Assembly (NCBI RefSeq): GCF_900104255.1
Contig: NZ_FNKZ01000001.1
Span: 1,518,001 to 1,582,000 of the forward strand
From: Pseudoxanthomonas sp. CF385
Lineage (GTDB): Bacteria; Pseudomonadota; Gammaproteobacteria; Xanthomonadales; Xanthomonadaceae
DNA length: 64,000 nt
Direction: 5' to 3'
The notes under the pieces were generated by a model. That model ran no database searches. It worked only from the letters and a program-made list of their open reading frames with translations, and was not told where the DNA came from. A program made the position numbers and the translations under genes. Of the stretch, positions 59,892 through 61,252 are shown piece after piece; the stretch's first letter is position 1; each line of letters starts with the position of its first letter.

Positions 59892-60737
59892 TCAGCCGAC
59901 GATCAGGACGAAGTCGCCGCGCTGCGAGGCCATGGACAGCGCCAGCGTGCTGCCGGTGGCCGTCAGGTCCGCCGCCGAAAGCTGCGTGGACGGCGGCTGC
60001 GCGCGGTACGTCGCGTCATCGGGCAACGTGTCGCGGACGACGTAGCCCATCAGCACGTTGACCAGTTCGCCGAGCGCATCCAGGGCCAGCTCGTCATCGC
60101 ACTGCTCCGGCGTCAGCGAAAGCAGGGCGCAGGCCATCGCCTGCATGGTGGCGCGGCTGCAACCGACGCCGACCAGCAGCGATTGCGAGCCGGACGCGAT
60201 GCGCACGTGCGCGGTCACGTCGCAGGCCTCGAGCGCGGCGTCGTTGGCGATACCGGCCGCCTGGCACTGGCTGCCCACCAGGCGGGGGAACAGGCGGTTG
60301 CAGACGCGGATCGCGCTGGTGACCGCGTCGGCCAGGGTATGGCCGGCGATGCCCAGCGCCAGCGCGTGGTTGGCTTCATCGAGGTCCCGGCGGTGCGCGA
60401 CCAACTCGGTCTCCAACTGCTCGGCGCTCAGCACGCCCTGGTCGACCAGGATCTGGCCGAACAACTTGCGGCCCTTCTTCTGCGCCGCGAGCAGCACGTC
60501 GAGCTGGCCTTCGTTCAGCCAGCCCATCTCGAGCGCGATGTCGCCGAAGCGGCGGTCTTCCGCGCGCTGGCGTTCGTGGATGCGGCGCGCCTGCGTCGCG
60601 TCGAGCATGCCGTGGTGCATGGCGAGTTCGCCGAGCAGGGGGTTGGACGCGCGCTGCGCGTCGAGGGCGGCCAGAAGCTGCGCCGAGGTGATGGTGCCGC
60701 GTTCCAACAGGAACTGGCCCAGGAATTTCGCTGCCAT
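59892..60737 (-). CDS. MshEN-repeat plus CheX-domain protein
   Basis: A 281-residue cytosolic protein. Four consecutive MshEN-like motifs are recognisable: FLGQFLLERGTITSAQLLAA (about residue 5), LLGELAMHHGMLDATQARRI (34), FGDIALEMGWLNEGQLDVLL (64) and FGQILVDQGVLSAEQLETEL (93). MshEN motifs in MshE and PilF/GspE N-terminal domains bind c-di-GMP. The C-terminal part is a CheX-like domain whose signature is DALGELVN (Asp220, Glu224, Asn227), as in CheX/CheC phosphatases. The RLG arginine is mostly replaced. It is 43 bp downstream of a CheY-like gene, the likely target. Confidence 0.8.
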   Translation of the reverse strand: MAAKFLGQFLLERGTITSAQLLAALDAQRASNPLLGELAMHHGMLDATQARRIHERQRAEDRRFGDIALEMGWLNEGQLDVLLAAQKKGRKLFGQILVDQGVLSAEQLETELVAHRRDLDEANHALALGIAGHTLADAVTSAIRVCNRLFPRLVGSQCQAAGIANDAALEACDVTAHVRIASGSQSLLVGVGCSRATMQAMACALLSLTPEQCDDELALDALGELVNVLMGYVVRDTLPDDATYRAQPPSTQLSAADLTATGSTLALSMASQRGDFVLIVG

Positions 60738-60780
60738 GGTGGGTCGTCTCGTACGGAAGTGGGAAGGACGTGCGTGCCGG

Positions 60781-61149
60781 TCAGGCGACCGCTTCGTGCA
60801 GCACGCGATCCATCACCTCCGGATCGATGGGTTTCTGCAGGTAGGACCTGGCGCCCAGCTTCAGGCATTCCTCGATGTCGCTCTGCGCGCCCAGCGAGCT
60901 GAGGATCACCACGCGGGCATCGGGATCCTGCGCGAGGATCTGGCCGAGGGCCTGCTTGCCGTCGCACTCGGGCATCACCAGATCCATCAGCACCACGTCC
61001 GGCTTCAGCGCCTGGTACTGGCTGATGGCTTCGTGGCCGTTGCCGGCCTCGCCCACCACATGGAAACCGCAGTCGTCGAGCTGGCGTGCCGCCAGCATGC
61101 GCAACGCGCGCGAATCATCGCAAAGCAGAACCGTCGGACGTGACGTCAT
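60781..61149 (-). CDS. CheY-like single-domain response regulator
   Basis: A 122-residue receiver: acidic pair in LLCDDSRALR (residues 11-12), phosphoacceptor Asp56 in DVVLMDLVMPECDG, a Thr/Ser switch (VILSSLG) and the Lys in YLQKPIDPE. No output domain. Followed by the CheX-like gene on the same strand, which would be expected to dephosphorylate it. No kinase gene is nearby. Confidence 0.93.
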   Translation of the reverse strand: MTSRPTVLLCDDSRALRMLAARQLDDCGFHVVGEAGNGHEAISQYQALKPDVVLMDLVMPECDGKQALGQILAQDPDARVVILSSLGAQSDIEECLKLGARSYLQKPIDPEVMDRVLHEAVA

Positions 61150-61252
61150 TTCAAGATCCCCCTGTGGATCGTGTTGGCCGCGCGCGGATGCGACGCGGGG
61201 CGACATGTAGGCCGTATCGGCCGGCCCGGGGAGTTCTTGAGTCGTGCGTGGA

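Follow-up and report, generated by a model that had tools for sequence, protein, structure and literature searches.

A MshEN-CheX protein and its adjoining CheY in Pseudoxanthomonas: a candidate c-di-GMP-linked CheY-phosphatase pair behind a sigma-28-type promoter

Locus organization

Two adjoining genes of Pseudoxanthomonas sp. CF385, here called X and Y, are described in this report. They are located in a window of 64,000 nucleotides, i.e. the whole stretch of DNA that was analysed. Judged from profiles, a structural model and homologs, X encodes a four-motif MshEN domain fused to a CheX-type phosphatase domain. Y encodes a CheY-type receiver. Both genes are on the minus strand, with Y upstream of X. 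The gap of 43 bp is as the original prediction had stated. The sigma-28-type promoter in front of Y is an addition to that prediction. The features are as follows.

61215..61240, minus strand: sigma-28 (FliA)-type promoter, TCAAG-N14-GCCGATA, a perfect match that ends 65 nt ahead of the start codon (ATG) of gene Y
60781..61149, minus strand: gene Y, 122 aa, stand-alone CheY-type receiver (Pfam Response_reg, 92.9 bits)
59892..60737, minus strand: gene X, 281 aa, four-motif MshEN domain fused to a CheX-type phosphatase domain
60654..60725, minus strand: MshEN motif 1, residues 5-28, F-L-G ... Q28
60567..60638, minus strand: MshEN motif 2, residues 34-57, L-L-G ... A50 ... H/N54 ... Q57, corresponding to MshE motif I in the model
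60480..60551, minus strand: MshEN motif 3, residues 63-86, R63-F-G ... L79 ... L83 ... Q86, corresponding to MshE motif II in the model
60393..60464, minus strand: MshEN motif 4, residues 92-115, L-F-G ... L108 ... L112 ... H115
59895..60347, minus strand: CheX domain, residues 131-281
60057..60080, minus strand: DxxxExxN signature, D220-A-L-G-E224-L-V-N227

Y has the acidic pair, the phosphorylated Asp, the Ser/Thr and the Lys of a CheY, and an output domain is absent. D11, D12, D56, S84, Y103 and K106 did not vary among the 37 loci of the window's family. The best matches in the PDB were the CheY chains 6er7, 1tmy, 4iga and 1u0s (98-93 bits), archaeal and Thermotoga-type CheYs of the kind served by CheC/CheX. 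A 126-aa receiver (L139:9171-9551) has 43% identity to Y and is thus closer to it than the canonical CheY. Its two neighbours look by eye like a sigma-54 gene and a FleQ-type activator gene, and the receiver may be VemR.

X and Y form a two-gene module

The 37 family loci comprise eight named ones and 29 from a set of family genomes; these are related genomes and not independent events. One locus from the window's own genus (L010) has 84-92% DNA identity to the eight named loci and is therefore no duplicate of them. In all 37 loci Y adjoins X on the same strand and in the same order, while the genes beyond Y vary. The conserved linkage across the family that the original prediction had asked for was thus observed. 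X was present in at least 29 of 198 family genomes and at least 11 of 54 genera, including at least two of nine listed genomes of the window's genus. Y, at a threshold of E <= 1e-28 chosen by us, was found in exactly the same 29 genomes. All genome sets are draws, and at most 12 (X) and 22 (Y) candidates per genome were scored in the family searches and at most 6 in the class and phylum searches; therefore, the carrier counts are lower bounds.

A draw of 369 genomes from the class yielded at least five genomes outside the family with a full-length relative of X. They belong to three families, and identities were 26-32%. A CheY adjoined the X relative in 5/5 of these loci. In one of them (L042:2212-2529, minus strand) the CheY frame is broken close to its beginning, owing either to a genuine lesion or to an error in sequencing. 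A draw of 398 genomes from the phylum, with at most 6 candidates scored per genome, added no full-length match at E <= 1e-10. In Lachnospira eligens, a member of the Bacillota, a single 435-aa protein annotated as response regulator (L143:4001-5308, NC_012780.1) joins MshEN, a CheX-like middle part and CheY, in the order X then Y. Its MshEN part is 29% identical to residues 1-118 of X and scored 46 bits with NCBIfam NF053729, above cut-off, with the best stretch at 40-86; both Gly and Gln are kept in motifs 2 and 3 only. The middle part contains D-A-I-G-E-F-T-N and scored 19.2 bits with CheX and 19.3 bits with CheC, in each case less than the cut-off. The CheY domain is 35% identical to Y. Adjacency, co-occurrence and the fusion in another phylum strongly support that X and Y form a two-gene module.

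The C-terminal part of X is a CheX-type domain

With Pfam CheX (PF13690) X scored 30.8 bits (cut-off 27), and this was the sole CheX match in the genome. Four relatives that keep the signature were compared in the same manner: L035, L039 and L040 were above cut-off, L038 was just below (26.6 bits). The predicted structure of X has the CheX fold. The original prediction had correctly named D56 in Y and, in X, the signature residues D220, E224 and N227. This catalytic signature was invariant in 43 of 43 sequences (the 37 family loci, five distant loci and the L. eligens protein). Profile, fold and invariant signature therefore support the claim that X contains a CheX-type phosphatase domain.

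The same data bear on a different role, in which X is a c-di-GMP (cyclic di-GMP)-regulated adaptor that sequesters phosphorylated Y or carries it to the motor and does not dephosphorylate. A binding role is thinkable because FliM, FliY and CheC are relatives of CheX in fold, and linkage alone is no proof of enzyme action. On the other hand, the three signature residues are retained even in distant sequences at 26-32% identity. Furthermore, a degenerate fused homolog from the phylum draw (L089:1063-1923, minus strand), which lacks a CheX match, also lacks a Y match in its locus. We regard an adaptor as improbable. The degenerate homolog lies between genes which by eye look like MoxR and DUF58 genes, and it offers a naturally occurring comparison for the intact pair.

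A sigma-28-type promoter motif probably connects the pair to flagellar genes

The promoter was recognised by TMAAG-N14-GCCGATA, the sigma-28 consensus. Upstream of Y all 12 motif positions matched in 16, 11 in 14 and 10 in four of the 37 family loci. Thus, a motif with at least 10/12 matches was present in 34/37 loci, 38-78 nt from the start of Y. For comparison, 1,332 control windows were taken from these loci, of which 10 reached 10/12 and two reached 11/12. L035-L037, from the two family genera that diverge most (g22, g33), retain the pair, but no such motif was found before Y. In the distant loci the motif matched at 10/12 (L038) and 9/12 positions (L039) and was absent in L040-L042.

The CF385 genome has 16 exact matches to the motif compared to 0.16-0.25 expected from the window composition, or about 0.9 when the expectation is scaled from a reversed-pattern control. 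With one mismatch allowed 47 matches stood against 39 in the reversed-pattern control, which leaves the exact sites alone as informative. Seven of them are located in one stretch of 26 kb (P 7e-12; the stretch was delimited after the matches had been seen). Apart from the Y site, 12 of 15 exact sites precede flgM (two sites), motA, a STAS-cheY-cheA group, cheV, two genes for methyl-accepting chemotaxis proteins, YcgR and four GGDEF proteins. The cheV site overlaps the gene start and the motA site is 9 nt away, and both are poorly placed. The exact sites in this genome support the assignment of the motif to sigma-28. The four GGDEF proteins (L110, L112, L118 and L123) and the YcgR protein (L124) behind exact motifs suggest a FliA regulon that is rich in c-di-GMP genes. 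The three remaining exact sites precede a CHASE/PAS gene (L109), a HAMP gene with a match below cut-off (L113) and a 98-aa frame without a Pfam match (L114:1177-1470, minus strand). The start of the latter reads like a flagellar rod protein.

The genome encodes a sigma-70-family factor (L140:6204-6953), which we interpret as FliA because it lies next to cheY-cheZ-cheA. By its promoter motif, the Y-X unit appears to be co-expressed with flagellar genes under a FliA-type promoter. The link to the FliA regulon says to which pathway the module would belong.

X occurs in bacteria with CheZ or flagellin

Of the 198 family genomes 102 have CheZ, and so do 27 of the 29 that carry X (Fisher p 4e-7, kinship not corrected). 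Counted by hand at the genus level, CheZ was found in 11/11 genera with X and in 30/54 of all genera (p 6e-4). The two X genomes without CheZ, G094 and G143, are 75% and 91% complete, and both contain flagellin. In the five X genomes outside the family flagellin was found in 5/5 and CheZ in 3/5. In the CF385 genome the FliA-like sigma factor, a canonical-looking cheY, cheZ, cheA and motA are in one row. This canonical CheY is 25% identical to Y, while Y best matches CheC/CheX-type CheYs. Two CheY-phosphatase pairs thus appear to exist side by side, X-Y being the second of the flagellar regulon.

Would the pair rather have an output other than the flagellum, such as type IV pili? The best-known MshEN domains are those of ATPases for pili and secretion, the distant locus L038 has a neighbour gene which by eye resembles PilY1, and L035-L037 retain the pair without the promoter motif. 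Against this stand the sigma-28-type promoter in 34 of 37 loci and the presence of CheZ or flagellin in every X genome, the 29 of the family and the five outside. We consider a non-flagellar output quite unlikely.

The MshEN-type domain as a possible c-di-GMP input

The four motifs of X start at residues 5, 34, 63 and 92 with a strict period of 29, i.e. 24 residues plus a 5-residue spacer as in MshE. The original prediction was correct in its coordinates, strand and residues. NF053729 ('c-di-GMP_motif, MshE-related') scored 83.3 bits (cut-off 38). In a scan of the genome X, with two stretches of 49.4 and 44.5 bits, was the sole protein above cut-off; the runner-up, a 578-aa frame, reached 21.2 bits. 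Of the profile matches that had been anticipated, CheX and MshEN were thus obtained. Pfam T2SSE_N, in contrast, gave no match at E <= 1. An AlphaFold2 model of X had a mean pLDDT (predicted local distance difference test) of 93.5. In the model two 24-residue motifs and a 5-residue spacer form a four-helix bundle, and motifs 2 and 3 superpose on the four-helix unit of MshE with 1.4 A across 58 residues. G7, G36, G65, G94, Q28, Q57 and Q86 were invariant in the family loci.

Several points weigh against c-di-GMP as the ligand. The leading residues of the motifs are F5, L34, R63 and L92, i.e. Arg is present in motif 3 alone, which bears out the original caveat that Arg is replaced in most repeats. 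R63 is kept in 36/37 family loci, and the other leading Arg is at position 92 in two loci. A canonical MshEN pair has a leading Arg and LxxxLxxQ in both motifs, and no pair of X does. The relaxed motif of Wang et al. fitted motif 3 in 23/37 loci and motifs 1, 2 and 4 in 0/37. In motif 2 the Leu positions are occupied by A50 (37/37) and, at position 54, by N (33), H (2) or Q (2). This conserved Ala/Asn replaces two ligand-contacting leucines of MshE, and it does so in the modelled pair of motifs 2 and 3 that is MshE-like. Position 115 in motif 4 is H in 33 and Q in four loci. Since the same Ala/Asn pair recurs in the Bacillota fusion, it looks selected and not decayed.

How heavily do these replacements count? 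According to Wang et al. (2016; PMC5013675), the Arg of each MshE motif stacks on guanine, the Gly and the following residue bond it via backbone amides, Gln bonds ribose and phosphate, and each base is held by three leucines. There, single changes of conserved hydrophobic residues reduced affinity more than 10-fold, a change of Arg9 at most fivefold. In another assay (PMC4624772) the Arg9 change cost 83% of binding. Wang et al. also state that perfect conservation is perhaps not required, and they mention proteins with less conserved sites that were detected in a c-di-GMP screen. X is classed here, by its sequence, as carrying an MshEN-type domain and not as an established c-di-GMP receptor. 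Only motif 3 is near-canonical. Direct gating of X by c-di-GMP is plausible.

In a rival reading X is an active CheX phosphatase of Y whose MshEN-type domain binds another ligand or a protein, e.g. a component of pole, pilus or motor, and so places the phosphatase without sensing c-di-GMP. Three points argue against this: the Gly of all four motifs and the Gln of motifs 1-3 are invariant, X has the top NF053729 score of its genome, and proteins with less conserved sites did turn up in a c-di-GMP screen (PMC5013675). We hold a non-sensing domain to be rather unlikely, yet the most serious competitor.

A tentative mechanism

We slightly favour X-Y as an accessory, FliA-controlled flagellar CheY-phosphatase pair with the MshEN unit as c-di-GMP input. 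FliA (sigma-28) would transcribe Y and X together, at a late stage of the expression of flagellar genes. Y, a CheY of the CheC/CheX-served kind, would probably be phosphorylated by one of the CheA kinases of the cell, and the CheX domain, as in its family, would dephosphorylate it via Glu224 and Asn227. Binding of c-di-GMP to the four-helix unit, mainly to motifs 2 and 3, may alter how active the CheX domain is, or its dimer state. The share of Y that is phosphorylated would then follow c-di-GMP, in either direction. Phosphorylated Y may act on the motor or as a sink in the phosphate flow from CheA, beside the ordinary CheY/CheZ.

A broader proposal is possible, though we would not bet on it. 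Flagellated bacteria from Pseudomonadota to Bacillota may have a second chemotaxis branch, made up of CheY and MshEN-CheX, where CheY would be dephosphorylated at a rate set directly by a cyclic dinucleotide. The CheX-linked pocket would be asymmetric (near-canonical motif 3, Ala/Asn in motif 2) and perhaps retuned in affinity or ligand, e.g. to a mixed cyclic dinucleotide.

Comparison with known systems

c-di-GMP affects motility via motor brakes and gene regulation. The flagellar brake YcgR (PilZN-PilZ) links c-di-GMP to the motor and acts on the motor itself. In the CF385 genome a YcgR gene is behind the same sigma-28-type motif as Y; X, however, would act via the CheY phosphate. If X reads c-di-GMP and acts on a CheY, second messenger and chemotaxis would be joined at the phosphate itself, and swimming may be tuned by c-di-GMP through X-Y. 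The FliA-type promoter indicates when and with which partners the pair is probably made. Two small proteins, conserved and simple, are amenable to study in vitro.

Compared to the CheX/CheC/FliY phosphatases of phosphorylated CheY (Thermotoga maritima CheX, 1xko/1squ; Borrelia CheX-CheY3, 3hzh), X has in addition a four-motif MshEN domain at its N-terminus, and it occurs in a cell that contains CheZ as well. The CheY/CheZ pair of the CF385 genome (L140:7065-8062) is likewise a receiver adjoining a phosphatase, in the flagellar cluster. CheZ, however, is of a different family (PF04344) from CheX, and its CheY is the one with the low identity to Y. With Vibrio MshE (5htl) X shares the 24 + 5 periodicity, the Gly and Gln contact residues and the modelled four-helix unit. 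It differs in having four motifs instead of two, with the central pair matching in the model, in Arg being confined to motif 3 and in the conserved Ala/Asn of motif 2.

MshEN-CheX fusions, the same domain pair as in X, are named in one sentence in section 12 of Wang et al. (2016; PMC5013675). The main text of that paper makes no mention of CheY. Sections 4 (part 1), 12 and 13 (part 1) contain no promoter or distribution of an MshEN-CheX and CheY pair, and no sigma-28 control, CheZ coexistence, central-pair geometry or three-domain fusion.

The phylum draw yielded, besides the degenerate fused homolog, stand-alone four-motif MshEN proteins. Five of these (L081, L083, L084, L085 and L086) have 124-151 aa and no CheX, and all belong to one family (f207) outside the class.
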